Shown here: positions 16,933-56,698 of the stretch, one piece after another | How positions within the stretch are numbered: position 1 is the first letter of the stretch | Layout of the letters: the number at the start of each line of letters is the position of its first letter | Assembly (NCBI RefSeq): GCF_010731775.1 | Contig: NZ_AP022590.1 | Span: 4,030,001-4,094,000 of the forward strand | DNA: 64,000 bases | Source: Mycobacterium mantenii | Lineage (GTDB): Bacteria > Actinomycetota > Actinomycetes > Mycobacteriales > Mycobacteriaceae | Direction of reading: 5' to 3' | Translations under genes and position numbers: made by a program | The notes under the pieces: model-generated | Seen by the model: only the letters and a program-made list of their open reading frames with translations | Told to the model about the DNA's origin: nothing | Database searches by the model: none

Positions 16933-18645
16933 ATGCCCACCACCGATTCGGCCGCAACCCCCGACATCAAGCCGCGTAGTCGTGACGTCACCGACGGTCT
17001 GGAGAAGGCCGCCGCCCGGGGCATGCTGCGGGCCGTAGGCATGGGTGACGAGGACTTCGCCAAGCCGCAGATCGGGGTCGCCTCGTCGTGGAACGAGATC
17101 ACCCCGTGCAACCTGTCCCTGGACCGGCTCGCCAAGGCGGTCAAGGAGGGCGTGTTCGCCGCGGGCGGCTACCCGCTCGAGTTCTGCACCATCTCGGTGT
17201 CCGACGGCATCTCGATGGGCCACGAGGGGATGCACTTCTCGCTGGTGTCGCGCGAGGTGATCGCCGACAGCGTCGAGACGGTGATGCAGGCCGAACGCCT
17301 GGACGGGTCGGTGCTGCTGGCCGGCTGCGACAAGTCGCTGCCGGGGATGCTGATGGCCGCCGCACGGCTGGACCTCGCGTCGGTGTTCCTGTACGCGGGG
17401 TCGATCCTGCCCGGGGTGGCCAAGCTGTCCGACGGCAGCGAGCGCGAGGTGACCATCATCGACGCGTTCGAGGCGGTGGGCGCCTGCGCCCGCGGCCTGA
17501 TGCCCCGCGAGGACGTCGACGCCATCGAGCGCGCGATCTGTCCCGGTGAGGGCGCGTGCGGCGGCATGTACACGGCCAACACGATGGCCAGCGCCGCCGA
17601 GGCGCTCGGGATGTCGCTGCCTGGGAGCGCGGCGCCGCCGGCGACCGACCGCCGCCGCGACGGGTTCGCGCGGCGCAGCGGCCAGGCCGTCGTCGAACTG
17701 CTGCGGCGCGGCATCACCGCCCGCGACATCCTCACCCCGGAGGCGTTCGAGAACGCGATCGCGGTGGTGATGGCGTTCGGCGGCTCGACCAACGCGGTGC
17801 TGCATCTGCTGGCCATCGCCCACGAGGCCGAGGTCGAGCTGTCGCTCGACGATTTCAGCCGGATCGGTTCGAAGGTTCCGCACCTGGCCGACGTCAAGCC
17901 GTTCGGCCGCCACGTCATGTCCCACGTCGACCACATCGGCGGGGTGCCGGTGGTGATGAAGGCGCTGCTGGATGCCGGGCTGCTGCACGGCGACTGCCTG
18001 ACGGTGACCGGTGCGACGGTGGCCGAGAACCTGGCGAAGATCGCCCCGCCCGACCCGGACGGCAAGGTACTGCGCGCGCTGAGCAACCCCATCCACCCGA
18101 CCGGCGGGATCACCATCCTGCGCGGATCGCTGGCGCCCGAGGGTGCTGTGGTCAAGTCGGCCGGTTTCGAGTCCGATGTGTTCGAAGGCACCGCAAGGGT
18201 TTTCGACGGCGAGCGAGCCGCGCTGGACGCATTGGAGGACGGCACCATCACCCAGGGTGACGCCGTGGTGATCCGCTACGAGGGCCCCAAGGGCGGCCCC
18301 GGCATGCGGGAAATGTTGGCCATCACCGGCGCCATCAAGGGCGCCGGTCTGGGCAAGGGCGTGCTGTTGCTGACCGACGGCCGCTTCTCCGGCGGGACGA
18401 CCGGCCTGTGCGTCGGCCACATCGCCCCCGAGGCCGTCGACGCCGGTCCGATCGCCTTCCTGCGTGACGGCGACCGGATCCGTCTGGACGTGGCCAACCA
18501 CGTGCTCGACGTGGTGATCGATCCCGACGAATTCGATTCTCGGCGAAAGGATTTCACCCCCCCGGAGCCGCGCTACAGGACCGGTGTGCTGGCCAAGTAC
18601 GTGAAACTGGTCAGCTCGGCCGCGATCGGCGCGGTCTGCGGTTGA
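16933..18645 (+). CDS. ilvD: Dihydroxy-acid dehydratase
   Basis: A 570-residue enzyme that converts 2,3-dihydroxy-3-methylbutanoate (and the methylpentanoate analogue) to 2-oxo acids in valine, isoleucine and leucine synthesis, using an Fe-S cluster. Conserved cysteines are visible in [20 protein letters not shown] and [33 protein letters not shown] near the C-terminus is the substrate/metal signature. Length and ends match mycobacterial IlvD (Rv0189c). The last 29 bases of the gene recur at 25128-25156, at the far edge of the neighbouring accessory segment. Confidence 0.96.
18617..18645. repeat. 29-bp direct repeat, left copy (ilvD 3' end)
   Basis: This is the last 29 bases of ilvD including its TGA. 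The same sequence occurs at 25128-25156 in the same orientation with one T/C difference (18637 versus 25148). The homology starts and stops abruptly on both sides. It marks the left edge of the accessory segment. Confidence 0.9.
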
Positions 18646-18939
18646 CCCTGCCGATTACCCTCCCGCTCAACACCTTGCGACCAGCGCTACCTTACGGCCA
18701 GCGGCCGGTCTGACCCGACAGGGCAGTCCCGGCCGACTCTGAGACGCCGGCACTTTGCTGAAGCCGGCCGAGAGCAGATTTGACCCCTTGTCGGTCGAAC
18801 GTACGAATTTCGCGGCGAGCCGACACACGCGACCCCGAGGGGCAACGAAAATCGGTCTACCGGATCAGCCCCCGAGGTGGCTCGATACCGATCCCTGACC
18901 ACCGACGTCCGGAACCGCGTCGGAACCCGGAAGGCCGTC

Positions 18940-20751
18940 ATGTCACAGGCACGCTTCAACTCTCCGCCGAACTGGCCCTTGCCCGCAGGTTGGATGCCGC
19001 CGCCGGGCTGGGAACCCGACCCGTCGTGGCCGCCTGCACCCCCGGGCTGGCAGTTCTTCACCGAGCAGCCCACCCCCGCCCAAACGCACCTGGAAATGCC
19101 GCCGCCGCAGGCACCCGGCGCGCCGGTCCTCCCCGGCCCGCGACGGATCGGTGTGAGTAAAGGTTGGGCGCTGCTCGTGGTGGCGGTAGTCGCCGCCGTC
19201 GTCGCCGGGGGCGCACTCGTCTACCACCGCATGAACCAGCCCGATATTTTCGTCTTGAAACCCGTTGATGCTCAAGGAAATATCCAATCCGGCTGGGTAG
19301 AGGACACGAGTCGGTCCAGTGATCACATCGACTGTTCATTCGGCTCGCCGTCGCGCTACGACAAGTCGAGCGGCGTCCGTTCCTGCGGCGGCACCGCCGA
19401 CTCGGCCGACGCCTGTTGGCCCGCGGGCGACACCGGACACGTCCTTTGCGTGCTCGACCCGTTTGCCCAGGTGGTGTCCCGGATAGGGGCAAGGGGTCTG
19501 ACCACGCCGCGCAAACCCCTCACCGACGCGCCAGTCCCGTTCGCGCTGGTGCTCGACGACGGCACTCAGTGCCGCGTGCGCATCGGCGGCGCCTGGGATC
19601 GACCCGATGATCACCCGGACTGGGTGGGCTACTACGGGTGCCGCGCGACTTCGTCACTGGCCGTGCCGCCCAGCTTCATCGCCGTGTGGGGACCCGGCGG
19701 AGAAGCAAACGCCGAAGATTCGGGCATCAGCAAAGGCTTTGGCGGCTGGTCGGTAACAGTCGGCCCAGCGCACGGCCACCTGGACACCCACAAAGTCACC
19801 AAGGTGTTCTACGTGGGAGTCGCCGACCCCGGCGCCGCGGGAGGCGGCGGGGCTTCAGCCGGCACCGGCGGAACCAGGCTGGTCACCAAATGCGGCCGCA
19901 CGCCCCAATTTCAACCCGAAGCGATCCGCAGCGACTCCGGCGGACTCGTCATCCGGATGAAAATTGTCGCCTACTGCCCCGGTGGAGACGTGCTCAGCTC
20001 CTCACGCACCAGCATCAGCGTCACTTCGGGCGGCCAGAACGTGGCGTCCGGGGTCTTCGACCTGTCGAGCTCTCCGATCATCCTCGCGCCCGACCCCGGG
20101 AGTCCCAGCGGATCACTGCCGTCCATCGAGCACGACTTCCGTTTTCCGCTGGGAACTTTCTGGCGACTGCCGGTTTCGACCAGCGAAGCGCCCAGCAGCG
20201 GCTCGCCGCAGCAAGGCCAAACGGACCTGGACGTCAAGACCCTCATAGTCGCCTGCCAGGAGGCTGGCTCTACGACGACTACCGCACAAGCCGGCGCACC
20301 GAATCCTGGAGCGAGCACGCCAAGCACCGCCGTCTCACCCGCGGCACCGCCGTCGGGTGACAACGAGTCGGCAAGCTTCGATGCCCTGCGCGCGATTGCC
20401 AACGCCGACCGCCCCTTCATCCAAAGCCGACTCGCCGACCGCTGGGTGCCCCAGCTCAGCTCCAAACGGCCCGGGCTGGTCGCGGACGGGATCACTTGGG
20501 ACAACGCCGCAACTCTGCATGAACACCTGCAATTGCGGCTGCAGTACCCCGAAGTCCGGCTGCTGTGGACGGGCGACTGGTCGACCTTCTCCGCACCCGA
20601 CTTCTGGGTCACCATCGCCGGTGTCGTCTTCCCCGACGCCGGCGGAGCGCTCGCCTGGTGCCGAGACCACCATCTGGACCGCGACCACTGCTACGCCAAA
20701 CTGGTCAGCACCACCCACCCGGTCGATGGCAGCACCGCGTTCAATCCGTGA
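18940..20751 (+). CDS. PPGW-module, single-pass membrane protein with exported C-terminal domain
   Basis: 603 residues from ATG 18940, with GGAAGG just upstream. Residues 1-40 are a cytoplasmic Trp/Pro module (PPNWP, PPGW, PDPSWPPAPPGWQFF). A membrane helix spans about 75-95. The large exported part contains scattered cysteines, a Gly/Thr-rich region, a Thr/Pro/Ser-rich linker (about 440-485) and a compact C-terminal domain of about 115 residues (RPFIQSRLADRWVPQLSSK ... DRDHCYAKLVS). Similar C-terminal domains occur in actinobacterial membrane proteins, as far as I recall, without a known role. I do not recognise a function. It is the first gene of the accessory segment. Confidence 0.75.
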   Translation: MSQARFNSPPNWPLPAGWMPPPGWEPDPSWPPAPPGWQFFTEQPTPAQTHLEMPPPQAPGAPVLPGPRRIGVSKGWALLVVAVVAAVVAGGALVYHRMNQPDIFVLKPVDAQGNIQSGWVEDTSRSSDHIDCSFGSPSRYDKSSGVRSCGGTADSADACWPAGDTGHVLCVLDPFAQVVSRIGARGLTTPRKPLTDAPVPFALVLDDGTQCRVRIGGAWDRPDDHPDWVGYYGCRATSSLAVPPSFIAVWGPGGEANAEDSGISKGFGGWSVTVGPAHGHLDTHKVTKVFYVGVADPGAAGGGGASAGTGGTRLVTKCGRTPQFQPEAIRSDSGGLVIRMKIVAYCPGGDVLSSSRTSISVTSGGQNVASGVFDLSSSPIILAPDPGSPSGSLPSIEHDFRFPLGTFWRLPVSTSEAPSSGSPQQGQTDLDVKTLIVACQEAGSTTTTAQAGAPNPGASTPSTAVSPAAPPSGDNESASFDALRAIANADRPFIQSRLADRWVPQLSSKRPGLVADGITWDNAATLHEHLQLRLQYPEVRLLWTGDWSTFSAPDFWVTIAGVVFPDAGGALAWCRDHHLDRDHCYAKLVSTTHPVDGSTAFNP

Positions 20752-21233
20752 GTTCGCTTCCTGCACAATCGATGTGGGCACCGCAACAGACTCCGTGTAC
20801 ACCGCGTTTCGTACCGCGTCCGGCGATGAAACTCTCTCGAGGCACGGTGTGCCTGGCTCAGCTACTATCGGCGGTTGCCCGCGATGGATTCTGTTGGCGC
20901 AGAGTGGCTTTGCCGATCTCACCGGCTGTAGCCCCACCCACCAATAGTCTTCAATTCGCTGACCTCACCGTCATCGGCAGGGATGCCCACGGTAACTCCA
21001 GGGTCTTGAACGGCGTTTGCAAGGCGCTGATTCGAGAAAACATGCATTGCCCGCCCATAGGTTTCCGCAACCCTGCAACACCATTGCTCTTCGGACGAAC
21101 TGGGTTCTTCTGCCGCTGCGGCGGGCACCGCGCGATGGTCTTTTCGGATCAAGAGTGCGGTCTCAGCAAATGCGCATCGGCATGTGCGCGAGCTATCAGA
21201 ATATTGACCACCAAACGAAAAGGAGATGAGCGG
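20752..21233. other. Gene-poor stretch in the accessory segment
   Basis: About 480 bases without a convincing gene. The base composition is less GC-rich than the flanks. Open frames cross it on both strands, but none has a ribosome site, typical codon use or a recognisable domain. It may be decayed coding sequence. Confidence 0.4.
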
Positions 21234-21983
21234 CTACGGCGCAACCGCCCATCCGAGGAATTTGTCGTTAGGGTCGTTTGAATTCAGTGGCACTTGCCGT
21301 ATGTGCGGGGCGGTGTAGTAATTCGCGGTGAGGTATTGACCATTGCCTTCACTGAGCATGACATGCCCGAAACCATTGTCGAATCGGGGATCGCTCGTGA
21401 AGACGAGTGCTCCGGCAGGGATGTTGTCGGCATTCGTGTGAATTTGCCCTTTTGCCTTCAGGTCGTTGAAAGCGTCGATTGCTGATCCATATCTGAAAGA
21501 GTGGTTATAAGCCTGCTCCACGAACACCTCGCACTGAACCGTGCTGTTCGGGTTACTGGCCATCTGGTTGCGCGCCCAGGCCAGGGCTTGTCCTGCCCTA
21601 TCGCCGTTGGCCGCTGCCGGGGCAGGTGCATCACCACCTCCGCCCCCGCATTCTGGCCCCAGTGCCTTCAGCGTGTGCGTTTCGATATCGACATCGGCGA
21701 CGTAGTGGCCATCAGAAGTCTTGTACCACAAGTTATCCCAGCCACCATTGGGAATGTTGAAACTGAAGAATCCCTTCACCGGCTGACCCGTACTGTGGCA
21801 GACCAGGTTAAGGACTTGCCCAACGTTGTATACGCCGTCTTGGCCGGATTTCAAGTTCGGACCGTTCATGCGCTGAGTCTGTGCTTTGACGGTGGCTGTC
21901 GTGTCCGCATTGGCCGGCGCGGCCGTGCCCAGACCCACGATGACAGCAGCTGCGGCTGTGATCCCCAATGCCATCGACTTCAT
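21234..21983 (-). CDS. Secreted NlpC/P60- or CHAP-like putative peptidoglycan hydrolase
   Basis: 249 residues. A clear signal peptide (MKSMALGITAAAAVIVGLGT..., cleavage about APANA|DTT at 26/27) leads to an SH3-like domain (about 28-108), a Gly/Ala/Pro linker (about 112-126) and a C-terminal domain. That domain has the Cys-His arrangement of NlpC/P60/CHAP amidases: Cys151 in TVQCEVFVEQAY and His207 in GFGHVMLSEGNG. The start is ATG 21983, nine bases after GGGGG; an ATG at 21992 directly abuts that run. It would act in the cell wall if active. Catalysis is inferred from two residues and overall pattern only. Confidence 0.7.
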   Translation of the reverse strand: MKSMALGITAAAAVIVGLGTAAPANADTTATVKAQTQRMNGPNLKSGQDGVYNVGQVLNLVCHSTGQPVKGFFSFNIPNGGWDNLWYKTSDGHYVADVDIETHTLKALGPECGGGGGDAPAPAAANGDRAGQALAWARNQMASNPNSTVQCEVFVEQAYNHSFRYGSAIDAFNDLKAKGQIHTNADNIPAGALVFTSDPRFDNGFGHVMLSEGNGQYLTANYYTAPHIRQVPLNSNDPNDKFLGWAVAP

Positions 21984-22610
21984 TTGCTGCATCCCCCTGC
22001 TGCGCCTGTTTGGTGAGGTCGGTGGCAAACGCTACACGTCGGCCGGACGCCGGATCCCTGAAATGACTGTAAAAGCCTTATGCGCAAGCTATGAATGGCC
22101 GCCACGGGCGTTGGTGTCGTCCGAATGACTGATAACGCATCACGGCGTTCTTCGTTATCCTCCGCATCCCGCAAATGCAACAGCATTAGCCGCGCTCGTC
22201 TCGCCCTCACGACCAACTGTGTTGAATCCTGGCCATCGAAATGCGGCCGATGGGTCAGCGCGGTCGACACCCGCAACGGCCTTCGAAGTCTGGATCCAAA
22301 CTTGCTGCCCTGCAGAGCAATTGCGCATCGCTGAAATCCTGGTGCGCGGTGCCAGGACACCGGAGGTGAGCGTTTGCCCAAATCGCCAGAAGGTTAATGC
22401 CACCGGCGGACGCCACCGAACATCTGACGGCCCTGCGATTCGGTTTCCGATTTTCGGACCACCGGGCCAGCCAGCAGAAACAGGAGTCCACGCGGGTGCC
22501 GAAACGTCCCCGCGAAGTCATCGTCCGTGATTAAATCCCCGGCAGGGGCCCGTAAGGGATTGCATTTGCTCTGGATATGTTGACCAGGCGCTGGGGAGGG
22601 TGCTTTGGCC
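21984..22610. other. Gene-poor stretch between divergent genes
   Basis: About 620 bases between the divergent NlpC/P60-like gene and the response-regulator gene. Composition is less GC-rich, and no frame shows mycobacterial codon bias, a ribosome site or a known domain. It must hold both promoters. No specific operator was recognised. Confidence 0.4.
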
Positions 22611-23291
22611 ATGGCTGCTGGCGACAACGAGGCGGCGTCGGTGCAGGTCGCGATCATCGATGACCATGACGTAGTTCATGCCGGTATCGAAGCGTGGTGC
22701 AGTCGGGCTGACCCGCCTATCACTGTGGCGGGCAGCTTCTACAACCCGCACCAATACTTCGCGCGGTATCCGACGAATCCGAACGACGAGGTGGATGTCC
22801 TAATCTTCGAATTACAAATCGACGGTCGACGCCCTGATTGGGAGACACTGGCCACCCTGTGCAACGCCGGCCAGCGCGTCATCGTGTATTCGCACATGTT
22901 CAGCGACGAAGTGATCCTGACCAGTCTGGAGATCGGGGCACTCACCTACCTCGTCAAATCCGAAGGCCAGCAGCACCTCGTCGCTGCGGTTCACTCCGCA
23001 CACTCCGGCGAGCCCTATACGGGCCCCAAGATGACCAAGGCGTTGATCAACGACAACGCCCTGGGCCGGACCAAGCTGTCCGAAAGGGAAAAAGAGGTGC
23101 TCGTCGCGTGGTTCCAAACCGAGAGCAAGGAACTGGTCGGCAAACGGCTCTTCATCGCGCCGACAACTGTGCGCACCCACCTGCAACGGGCGCGGGCGAA
23201 ATACGCCGCGGCCGGCCGGCCGGCGCGCACCAAACCCGCACTGCTCGCGCGGGCAATCGAAGATGGCATCCTCAGCCTCAGCGACCTCTGA
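22611..23291 (+). CDS. Atypical NarL/LuxR-type response regulator lacking the phospho-acceptor Asp
   Basis: 226 residues from ATG 22611 (GGAGGG 10 bases upstream; TTG 22605 is an alternative). The receiver domain has the acidic pair IIDDHD and the switch Lys in YLVKSEG. Where the phosphorylated Asp should lie, the sequence reads VLIFELQIDG, with Glu67 instead of Asp. The C-terminal LuxR HTH (about 152-215; LSEREKEVLVAW ... IAPTTVRTHLQRARAKY) is intact. It resembles the M. tuberculosis LuxR-family protein Rv0195. No kinase gene is nearby. Glu may mimic constitutive phosphorylation, or activity may be set by other means. Confidence 0.85.
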   Translation: MAAGDNEAASVQVAIIDDHDVVHAGIEAWCSRADPPITVAGSFYNPHQYFARYPTNPNDEVDVLIFELQIDGRRPDWETLATLCNAGQRVIVYSHMFSDEVILTSLEIGALTYLVKSEGQQHLVAAVHSAHSGEPYTGPKMTKALINDNALGRTKLSEREKEVLVAWFQTESKELVGKRLFIAPTTVRTHLQRARAKYAAAGRPARTKPALLARAIEDGILSLSDL

Positions 23292-23402
23292 TCCGTTCTG
23301 TTGACCCCGACTTCAGACGTCGGCAATCGCTGTGTCAGCCGTTCGTACTAATCTGAGCACGATCTCGGCTCGGCCTCGGTGGCCGCGTGTTATATCCAGG
23401 TG

Positions 23403-24407
23403 ATGAGCGACAAGATGCCGCCGAGCGATTTCGGTGCGGGCTATCCCTACCCAGAAACAGGTCCAACCCCTCCCACTCCGCGCGCGCCTCGTCCGCCGTC
23501 GGGCACCCCATACTCTGGTCCGCCGGAATATCCGCCTTTCGGCGCCCGGGTCAGCCATCCCGTCGATCCGCCGACGCAGTGGTCACCGAGTACCGGGCCG
23601 GCGCCGTCCGGCTGGCACCCGGGACCCCCCCACGACAGCGCGGCCCAGCCGAACACCGTCTGGGGCGCTTCCCACGCTGACCCGCACGCGGACTACCACC
23701 GCCAAGCCGCAGCCCATTTCGGCCGGACCGCAGACCCACAATCGAACAGCTATGCGCCTCCCGGTGCTGCACCCGGCTACAACACACCCCCGCGCTACGG
23801 GTCCGAAGGACCGCAACTTCCGTCGGCGGTGTCGGCAGAGAAAGTCACCCAGTGGCTGGCCGCTCCCGGGCGCCTGAAGCTGGTCGCGGGTGCTGTCGGT
23901 GGCTTCATCGCGCTGATCCTGTTTCTCTCCGGGGGCTCAGGCGCCAAAATCGCGGCACTCGTCCTGGTGATCGCGGTGTGGGCCATCTGCTTCCGGCACG
24001 GCTACCACGAAAAGGCCGGGTTGCATGCCCAAACGCAGCTACCCGCAGACGAGGCCATCCGTACCGCGGTCGACGTCGCCAACACCCTTCGCGGGCCTTT
24101 GTCCAGTGTGCAGTTCAACGGCTCCACGCCAGACCGTGCGGACTTCACCGTCCGCGGGAGCACCTGGAAGCCGTTGAACTTTCATGTCGCGCTAAGGCCT
24201 GACCCGTCCGGCTGGATATTCCTTTCGACGCACCTTGACAGCTGGACTTGGCGGCGCCAGCGCGTGTATTTCATCCCGGTGCCCCTCACAAAGAGCATGG
24301 ACGGCTACGGGCTATACAAGGCCTTCGGTGGCCGGCTACTCGCCGAACTCCAGCGCCGCGCCCCGTCGACGAGCGGAACGTTCCACACCCGGCCACCGAC
24401 ACAGTGA
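23403..24407 (+). CDS. Proline-rich membrane protein of unknown function
   Basis: 334 residues from ATG 23403. Residues 1-140 are low-complexity Pro/Gly/Ser/Tyr. Two hydrophobic helices (about 158-176 and 181-197) form a hairpin. The C-terminal 135 residues form a mixed domain (DEAIRTAVDVANTLRG ... GYGLYKAFGGRLLAELQRR) that would be cytoplasmic if both helices cross the membrane. No family is recognised. It lies just downstream of the response-regulator gene on the same strand and could be its target. Confidence 0.72.
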   Translation: MSDKMPPSDFGAGYPYPETGPTPPTPRAPRPPSGTPYSGPPEYPPFGARVSHPVDPPTQWSPSTGPAPSGWHPGPPHDSAAQPNTVWGASHADPHADYHRQAAAHFGRTADPQSNSYAPPGAAPGYNTPPRYGSEGPQLPSAVSAEKVTQWLAAPGRLKLVAGAVGGFIALILFLSGGSGAKIAALVLVIAVWAICFRHGYHEKAGLHAQTQLPADEAIRTAVDVANTLRGPLSSVQFNGSTPDRADFTVRGSTWKPLNFHVALRPDPSGWIFLSTHLDSWTWRRQRVYFIPVPLTKSMDGYGLYKAFGGRLLAELQRRAPSTSGTFHTRPPTQ

Positions 24408-24502
24408 AACCCGGCGTGATCGCTTGCCGTCGTTGACGGGCGAACGATTGGCGGATATGCCAAGTAACCAACTAGCTCTCTAGCATTAAGGCGGTTCAGA
24501 AC

Positions 24503-25063
24503 GTGTCGACAACACTTGACGTGCTCTGGTCGCTCCACGGTCCCAACGGCTCGGGCGGTGTGGCCGAGACCGTCGAGTTCGTCGCCCGCCGAGGCTCACG
24601 CCGCTCACATTTCTTCTTCTTCGGCCGCGGCTTTGGATCGGCATTCTTTGTGGTGCCCGTCGTCCTCGTGGCGGCAGTCGGCGGTTATCTGATGAGGAAC
24701 CCGGACAAGGCGCGCGGCCTGAAGGAACGTCTCAAGGGCGCGTGGAAGGCTGGCGGGTCAACGCTTGATTCCTACCGCTACCCCACGCCGCCGTATTCGG
24801 GGCCGCATCAGGGTCCCGGACCGGACCCGAACGTGCATCCGGGGATCCGGCCGGAGAATCCCTGGCCCGCAAACCCGCCTGGGTTCCAGACCGGCTCTGC
24901 AGGAACCGATTCGATGCGGTTCAATCCCCCGCCGGGATGGCCGGCTCCGCCGCAGGACTGGACACCGTCGCAGGATTGGAAACCGGATCCGTCCTGGCCG
25001 CCTGCGCCGCCCGGATGGCATTTCTGGGTACCGGAACAACAACCGCCAAAGAAATGGGCCTAG
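24503..25063 (+). CDS. Small single-pass membrane protein with C-terminal PPGW module
   Basis: 186 residues from GTG 24503 with AAGGCGG 8 bases upstream. A basic/aromatic stretch (RRGSRRSHFFFFGRG) precedes one membrane helix (about 45-63), followed by a charged segment, a Pro/Gly-rich region and a C-terminal Trp/Pro module (139-175; FNPPPGWPAPP, PDPSWPPAPPGWHFW). The module is nearly the same as the N-terminal module of the 603-residue protein in this segment, but at the opposite end. Function unknown; the shared module suggests a common partner. Confidence 0.72.
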   Translation: MSTTLDVLWSLHGPNGSGGVAETVEFVARRGSRRSHFFFFGRGFGSAFFVVPVVLVAAVGGYLMRNPDKARGLKERLKGAWKAGGSTLDSYRYPTPPYSGPHQGPGPDPNVHPGIRPENPWPANPPGFQTGSAGTDSMRFNPPPGWPAPPQDWTPSQDWKPDPSWPPAPPGWHFWVPEQQPPKKWA

Positions 25064-25127
25064 CGGCGACGCCTCCCAGCGTGTGATTGCAGATCGCTAT
25101 CCGTCGTATCGACGCCTTGCTTGACAC

Positions 25128-25156
25128 CGGCCGCGATCGGCGCGGTCCGCGGTTGA
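25128..25156. repeat. 29-bp direct repeat, right copy (ilvD-end duplicate)
   Basis: Matches the ilvD 3' end (18617-18645) at 28 of 29 positions, with the TGA at the same place, but with no ilvD coding sequence before it. It lies in the otherwise empty gap between the PPGW gene and the SPW-repeat gene and marks the right edge of the accessory segment. Confidence 0.9.
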
Positions 25157-25235
25157 TCGTCGGCCCGGGCCTGGAGGATTCGGGAGGATTGGCCCGGGCC
25201 GTACGAAAAGCGCTGCGGCTTAACCGAGTTCGGGT

Positions 25236-25676
25236 CTACGCATGCGTGCCCGCGGCACGGGTGCGCATGCCGAAGTAGGTCGCGTTGAGGCCCAAGAACG
25301 TCAACAACGCACCCGCGACGACATTCGACCAGGTCATGCCGGCGGTCAGCGTGACACCCGGCAGGATCCACGTCGAGACGATGACCCACGCGCCGAGCAC
25401 CGGAAGCGTCCAGGTCATACCGTGCGCGCGGTCCAGCGTCGTCGCGAACCCGTACGCCAGGAACGCCACCGCGATCCCGACGATCAGGTCGGACGTGGCA
25501 AGCGATCCCATGGCGCTGAATCCAACGATCCACGGCGACGCGGCCACGTACAGCCCCGCGAGCAGGGCCAGACCGAACGTGACGTGCGCGCTCATCGACT
25601 CGGCGACCCGCTCATAGCGCGCGCGAAGAGCCAACAAATCGGGGTGCTGATCGATTGATGAATGGACTGTACTCAT
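25236..25676 (-). CDS. SPW-repeat membrane protein (Rv0188-like)
   Basis: 146 residues with four predicted helices. The SPW motif appears as AASPWIVGFS after the first helix; the second copy is degenerate (STWILPG). The start is ATG 25676 with AAAGG 7 bases upstream. In M. tuberculosis the equivalent gene adjoins ilvD, which is why the intervening segment here looks inserted. The role of SPW-repeat proteins is unknown. Divergent from the nitronate monooxygenase gene. Confidence 0.83.
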   Translation of the reverse strand: MSTVHSSIDQHPDLLALRARYERVAESMSAHVTFGLALLAGLYVAASPWIVGFSAMGSLATSDLIVGIAVAFLAYGFATTLDRAHGMTWTLPVLGAWVIVSTWILPGVTLTAGMTWSNVVAGALLTFLGLNATYFGMRTRAAGTHA

Positions 25677-56499: not shown

Positions 56500-56505
56500 G
56501 CTAGC

Positions 56506-56698
56506 GGGCGAAGCGGGTCGCCGCAATCAACCTGAGGCGATCGCGAGGGCGGCGAAGCCGGGCGAAGCGGGTCGCCGCAATCAACCTGAGGCGATCGCGA
56601 GGGCGGCGAAGCCGGGCGAAGCGGGTCGCCGCAATCAACCTGAGGCGATCGCGAGGGCGGCGAAGCCGGGCGAAGCGGGTCGCCGCAATCAACCTGAG
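56506..56698. repeat. 54-bp tandem repeat, 3.6 copies (VNTR candidate)
   Basis: Copies start at 56506, 56560, 56614 and 56668; the last is cut at 31 bases. Copies appear identical by eye. Each unit contains GCGATCGC and GGCGAAGC motifs. The array fills the gap between the convergent mce1R and SRPBCC genes and is adjacent to both stops. The 54-bp unit and location resemble mycobacterial MIRU/VNTR loci. Confidence 0.92.

Follow-up and report, generated by a model that had tools for sequence, protein, structure and literature searches.

How did five accessory genes come to lie directly behind ilvD, the gene for dihydroxy-acid dehydratase, in the genome of Mycobacterium mantenii? The window analysed here is a stretch of 64,000 nt from contig NZ_AP022590.1, and the genome (G000) is a single contig of 6.19 Mb. 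A sequence-only reading of the window had reported that the last 29 bases of ilvD, including the stop codon, recur 6.5 kb away in the same orientation at 28 of 29 positions, without ilvD sequence before the second copy, and had proposed that the five genes in between interrupt the neighbourhood of ilvD and a gene for a SPW-repeat protein that is seen in M. tuberculosis. We found that the DNA between the two copies is a 6,482-bp insertion at the ilvD 3′ end. The features that define it are as follows.

16933-18645, + strand: ilvD, dihydroxy-acid dehydratase, intact, with Pfam matches PF00920 and PF24877 and orthologues in relatives
18617-18645, + strand: left 29-bp copy, attL-like, the functional ilvD 3′ end including its TGA stop codon
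18646-25127, no strand: inserted segment, 6,482 bp long, found in none of the 53 other ilvD neighbourhoods read
25128-25156, + strand: right 29-bp copy, attR-like, originally the 3′ end of ilvD and now displaced, differing by one T-to-C change
25157-25238, no strand: native ilvD downstream sequence with a terminator-like palindrome (judged by eye), now 6.5 kb from ilvD
25239-25676, − strand: SPW-repeat gene, native right neighbour of ilvD (Pfam; neighbourhoods in relatives)

The flanking copies were confirmed by their coordinates and by shuffling, since the window holds two matches to the 29-mer where 0.00 were expected (100 shuffles). A motif common across the genome would have refuted the proposal; it occurs at only two places in the 6.19-Mb genome with up to three mismatches allowed. 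The left copy ends exactly at the stop codon of an intact ilvD, and no ilvD sequence lies upstream of the right copy, as had been noted. The right copy is followed by sequence (25157-25238) that matches the DNA directly after the ilvD stop in close relatives, indicating that it is the original ilvD end, displaced. The single mismatch between the copies, TGC on the left and CGC on the right, falls in the copy that has no remaining coding constraint.

The native arrangement was read in genus sets of 198 or 396 comparison genomes, one per species. Of the 198 genomes, 65 (M. mantenii among them) have a match to the SPW gene, and the ilvD neighbourhood was read in 40 of the 64 others; in all 40, SPW lies at most 0.8 kb from ilvD with none of the five insert genes between them. 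In a DNA alignment with a close relative, genome G283, SPW adjoins ilvD and the insert is absent from the ilvD site. Twelve more ilvD neighbourhoods, for which the queries included the window's own 342-aa protein, have SPW beside ilvD in ten cases and neither SPW nor the insert in the other two. In total, the insert is missing from 53 of 53 other ilvD neighbourhoods, and SPW directly follows ilvD in 51, so that the empty sites to be looked for in related mycobacteria were found. Judged from these comparisons, ilvD-SPW adjacency is the ancestral state. The boundaries are exact: the left alignment block against G283 ends at position 4048645 (G283 1304610) and the right block starts at 4055128 (G283 1304582), so that the two flanks share exactly 29 bp of the unoccupied G283 allele. 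The G+C content drops to 0.54 in the insert, compared to 0.62 or more in the flanks, and the genome carries no second full copy of the insert, only partial matches of 334 bp (76%) and 77 bp (77%).

A chance repeat or an assembly artefact might be considered, given that the occupied site is known from one genome only and that a second 29-bp pair, in G010, was rejected on finding that it consists of overlapping contig ends. However, the M. mantenii genome is one contig, the chance expectation is 0.00, and the repeat coincides exactly with both alignment breakpoints, making this explanation extremely improbable.

Other irregularities were seen at this site in the genus. Two loci, L069 (G117) and L070 (G071), carry 290 and 734 extra bp between ilvD and SPW, the start of which we take to resemble a methyltransferase-like coding sequence. 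At L040 (G134:C4:4561439-4573176), ilvD appears in three pieces in rearranged order around csoR, from either an assembly error or a real rearrangement.

The reading we favour, as an even call, is a single integration of the attachment-site (att) type at the ilvD 3′ end, now without an integrase and similar to a cis-mobilizable element (CIME). The accessory cluster would have entered the chromosome once, in the lineage of this species, when the final 29 bp of ilvD recombined with an equivalent 29-bp stretch of a circular donor. Such an event would have left a complete ilvD at the left junction, with the original 3′ end, the terminator, and SPW shifted to the right. The enzyme would most likely have been an integrase of the tyrosine-recombinase type, acting from elsewhere or since lost, and the segment would now be an immobile, CIME-like scar. 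The exact 29-bp flank overlap on the empty allele of G283, together with a repeat that ends at the stop codon, favours this reading, as do the absence of the insert from the other ilvD neighbourhoods, the native sequence on the right flank, and the lower G+C content inside. The M. mantenii genome also has 17 PF00589 matches, 16 of them over the cut-off, which could act in trans. The geometry of integration at a gene 3′ end that had been suggested is upheld. There are precedents among the tyrosine-integrase prophages of M. abscessus, whose common cores measure 25-76 bp where the site is a tRNA gene, and one of whose sites lies inside the 3′ end of a protein gene (PMC8092301).

A number of results weigh against the att-type reading. 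The same source gives the non-tRNA cores of M. abscessus as typically shorter, 3-25 bp (PMC8092301). None of the five insert genes matches an integrase, and neither PF00589 nor PF00239 matched anywhere in the insert (E limit 0.001), in agreement with the sequence-only reading. The nearest PF00589 match in the M. mantenii genome is more than 1.1 Mb away and the sole PF00239 match about 2.2 Mb away. The resident integrase loci share 8-12 bp of the core, which is at chance level (controls 8-14 bp), and no resident partner was found. A phage attachment site (attP) was not found in IMG/VR with the exact pattern (0 matches) or among phages with blastn, where all 55 records had E values of at least 0.4 and none covered over 80% of the query. 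The 29-bp core has no significant dyad, its dyad strength being reached by 296 and 464 of 2000 shuffles and by 367 of 2096 G+C-rich 29-mers of the window. No other close pair of the core was seen among the places listed for 198 genomes (142 matching), nor with a tighter pattern in 396 genomes (131 matching), a search that an occupied site split between contigs could escape; other cargo flanked by the same 29 bp, which was to be looked for, was thus not seen. Finally, a related cluster in G283, described below, is inserted elsewhere and has no long direct repeat.

Some of these searches returned candidates or partial signals. In genomes with two same-strand matches to the core, M. mantenii itself excepted, the listed places are separated by more than 100 kb or belong to different contigs; under the tighter pattern, G003, G048, G072, G139, and G182 have at most one match or, for G003, two on different contigs. 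The strongest core match in phages, 22 of 23 bp in an M. abscessus prophage, was rejected, the match lying inside a coding gene and not at the marked junction. IMG/VR holds one partial match to ilvD, the phage sequences searched hold no match to the insert, and the only PHROGs match among the insert genes is the response regulator. A literature search for ilvD as an integration site found no report, judging by titles, and "ilvD" does not occur in the main texts of PMC8092301, PMC10654092, and PMC7478629.

By the features tested, the insert is not an autonomous phage, an integrative and conjugative element (ICE), or a transposon. An autonomous prophage, ICE, or integrase island would carry its own integrase and phage or conjugation genes, and neither was found in the insert; a transposon or insertion sequence would have terminal inverted repeats and a transposase, and no such repeats were found at the insert ends among the 25 longest of 50 pairs, nor a transposase among the five genes. 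Derivation of the insert from a plasmid was rejected, the only matches being short or distant ones in Rhodococcus, Tsukamurella, Streptomyces, and others. Prophages and satellites resembling phage-inducible chromosomal islands in Mycobacterium, which are integrated by tyrosine integrases, have a similar core length at a reconstituted gene 3′ end, as described in PMC8092301 and PMC10654092, whereas the insert has no integrase or phage genes. The sites predicted for other named Mycobacterium clades, including M. avium-intracellulare, overlap tRNA-Lys or tmRNA (PMC10654092). The closest class is the CIME, defined in PMC5704250 as a decayed ICE or integrative and mobilizable element (IME) that has lost its integration and transfer genes and kept attL and attR. 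The insert likewise has direct repeats of att geometry at a gene 3′ end, a restored gene end, and no recognisable integration or transfer genes inside (five genes, PF00589, and PF00239 examined), but no parent ICE or IME and no integrase with this core was found, and the cargo is a signalling cluster. The insert works like a CIME, but membership is not claimed, since the repeats have no known cognate integrase.

The cargo itself consists of five genes, a block of signalling and envelope functions, and a candidate regulatory motif.

18793-18818, + strand: intergenic motif near GTCGGTCGAACGTAYGAATTT, upstream of the 603-aa gene, candidate operator
18940-20751, + strand: 603-aa protein with an N-terminal PPGW motif, no Pfam match, hydrophobic segment by eye
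21234-22028, − strand: 264-aa NlpC/P60-like protein with a sub-threshold Pfam match and, by eye, a signal-like stretch at the N-terminus; presumably CHAP-like
22605-23291, + strand: response regulator with a LuxR-type DNA-binding domain (Pfam)
23379-24407, + strand: 342-aa proline-rich protein, probably membrane, in 3 of 198 genomes including M. mantenii, plus G283
24503-25063, + strand: 186-aa probable membrane protein with a C-terminal PPGW motif

The PPGW motif is common to the C-terminus of the 186-aa protein and the N-terminus of the 603-aa protein, and the conserved start of the 342-aa gene is probably at 23403 rather than 23379. None of the five genes encodes a histidine kinase, and a search of solved structures with the 603-aa protein gave no match. 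Relatives were counted in the 198 genomes, M. mantenii included: they occur in 119 for the 603-aa protein (E limit 1e-3; many matches span one protein end only), 61 for the response regulator (E limit 1e-20), 17 for the NlpC/P60-like protein (E limit 1e-10), and 3 for the 342-aa protein (E limit 1e-10), for which a GTDB-wide scan gave two loci, apparently those of G063 and G197. The first 20 bp of the intergenic motif recur with at most three mismatches in six other genomes (loci L106, L107, L131, L184, L189, and L190), among response-regulator or kin loci, while a reversed-sequence control gave 0 matches in 2.0 Mb, and from the sequence pattern the motif is a candidate operator of the response regulator.

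The C-terminal domain of the 603-aa protein is also found in larger kinase/PQQ proteins. In G176 and G197, this domain and the regulator are found within larger loci whose other genes encode kinase-like proteins, an FtsK/SpoIIIE ATPase, DUF6777, and DUF7937. In G176 the locus additionally has FHA, PP2C, and VWA domains, along with a sub-threshold WXG100 match, and in G197 a relative of the 342-aa protein adjoins one of the 186-aa protein. These FHA/FtsK and kinase loci resemble the insert in the response regulator and in proteins with the 603-aa C-terminal domain, and differ in being about 15-20 kb long with FtsK/SpoIIIE ATPase and kinase genes, both of which the insert lacks. The same regulator type accompanies FHA/FtsK ATPase, WXG100-like, kinase, PP2C, and VWA genes at L131 (G176:C87:1-20000) and L136, the Pfam scan having covered L131 and part of L136, and gene sizes and order look similar at L189 and L190. 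The L131-type locus is possibly a secretion-linked signalling locus.

G283 carries a diverged version of the cluster some 33 kb away from the 3′ end of ilvD, at C1:1257209-1271710. Among the matches listed for 396 genomes (two candidate stretches each), G283 alone forms a linked set of DNA matches to the insert. Relatives of all five proteins are present, at amino-acid identities of 68% for the 603-aa protein, 79% for the regulator, 54% for the 342-aa protein, 57% for the 186-aa protein, and 50% for the NlpC/P60-like protein, and the 603-aa, regulator, 342-aa, and 186-aa genes keep their order and strand. In contrast to the insert, the G283 cluster is at another site without a long repeat, its NlpC/P60-like gene differs in position and orientation, and it has extra genes and a protein that matches HATPase_c at a sub-threshold Pfam score. 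No remnants of this kinase-like protein were recovered in the insert (best E 0.89), and similar ends of the two clusters were likewise rejected, as only short matches were found. The M. mantenii genome has no cluster at the G283 insertion site, and the cluster is absent there from 19 of 19 alignable relatives, of which 17 align straight across and two have an unaligned gap of about 140 bp. In the first 14 loci compared, 11 were straight, two gapped (L199 and L204), and one, L209, was unalignable and dropped; six of six more were straight. No match of at least 120 bp to the G283 cluster was found in any of those 14 loci. The clusters are 72-77% identical in DNA, compared to 88-92% for backbone blocks of the two genomes, and at the level of sequence they would represent separate acquisitions, not a local move, even if faster evolution of cluster genes could mimic part of the divergence. 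The cluster appears to be horizontally acquired but not tied to ilvD.

Two further observations were made. Upstream of the window, at G000:C1:4020030-4021273, there is a stretch of about 1.2 kb where alignment to most relatives breaks, a variable spot near the G283 insertion site. Repeats of about 54-56 bp, presumably of the type of mycobacterial interspersed repetitive units/variable-number tandem repeats (MIRU/VNTR-like), are common to M. mantenii (window 56505-56691) and G283 (C1:1255722-1256003).

The G283 junctions have no paired repeat of at least 20 bp, no shared 11-mer nearby, and at most about 4 bp in common by eye. Because this insertion has no such repeat, clusters of this kind can land without the 29-bp repeat, and this bears on illegitimate capture. 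Here the chromosome would have broken at the end of ilvD, leaving ends staggered by 29 nt, and fill-in and joining to a piece of foreign DNA would have left the 29 bp as a target duplication, with no site-specific enzyme involved. Ku/LigD end joining would be one possible pathway for such capture. The duplication would have been 29/29 at birth, which fits 28/29 with the change in the unconstrained copy, and capture also agrees with the G283 cluster at an unrelated site, with the failure to find an att partner, and with the lack of inverted repeats and transposase described above. It would nevertheless make a right boundary exactly on the stop codon a coincidence, the odds of which are raised by selection for an intact ilvD, and we regard capture as somewhat unlikely.

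Identity that ends at the stop codon is accounted for by a one-sided homologous import, in which a donor ilvD 3′ end arrived with the cluster, with a crossover in ilvD on the left and illegitimate joining on the right, 29 bp before the recipient stop. Substitutions specific to M. mantenii are denser towards the 3′ end of ilvD, with 10 over the final 213 bp and 24 over the first 1,500 bp. In a tree of the last 263 bp, M. mantenii falls outside the clade formed by its nearest relatives, the separating nodes having local supports of 0.919 and 0.924, a departure not seen in the tree of the first 1,400 bp. However, there is little strength in the substitution excess (compared with 15 relatives, Fisher p = 0.088; Poisson 0.039), placement among distant groups in the 3′-end tree is poorly supported (0.263), and the last 213 bp are still nearest to close relatives by identity (best 91.5%, 53 compared). 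Moreover, no cluster gene lies beside ilvD in any of the 53 neighbourhoods, G283 included, other DNA matches having been only partly traced to their neighbours. An imported ilvD 3′ end, tried as a lead, thus gave a weak signal only, and we consider import unlikely.

We therefore return to att-type integration as the preferred account of the locus. The precise gene-end insertion, the empty sites, and the absence of an integrase from the insert all stood up to comparison, while the suggestion of a new class of non-autonomous insertion did not, given that no other close 29-bp pair was seen in the genomes searched, that the kin cluster of G283 lies elsewhere without the repeat, and that CIMEs are already an established class; the insertion by itself demands no new mechanism. 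A broader proposal seems to us distinctly improbable: that a mycobacterial recombinase uses the ilvD 3′ end as a hitherto unreported attachment site, and that a compact signalling/envelope cassette related to the FHA/FtsK-type loci, lacking an integrase of its own, travels between related mycobacteria and reaches different sites of a single chromosomal neighbourhood by different routes. Gene gain is often difficult to follow in this genus, and the locus provides a clean case of insertion for which the empty allele is known; it indicates that the end of a biosynthetic gene can accept accessory DNA without damage to the gene. The parallel insertion in G283 points to a signalling cluster that is recurrently acquired.

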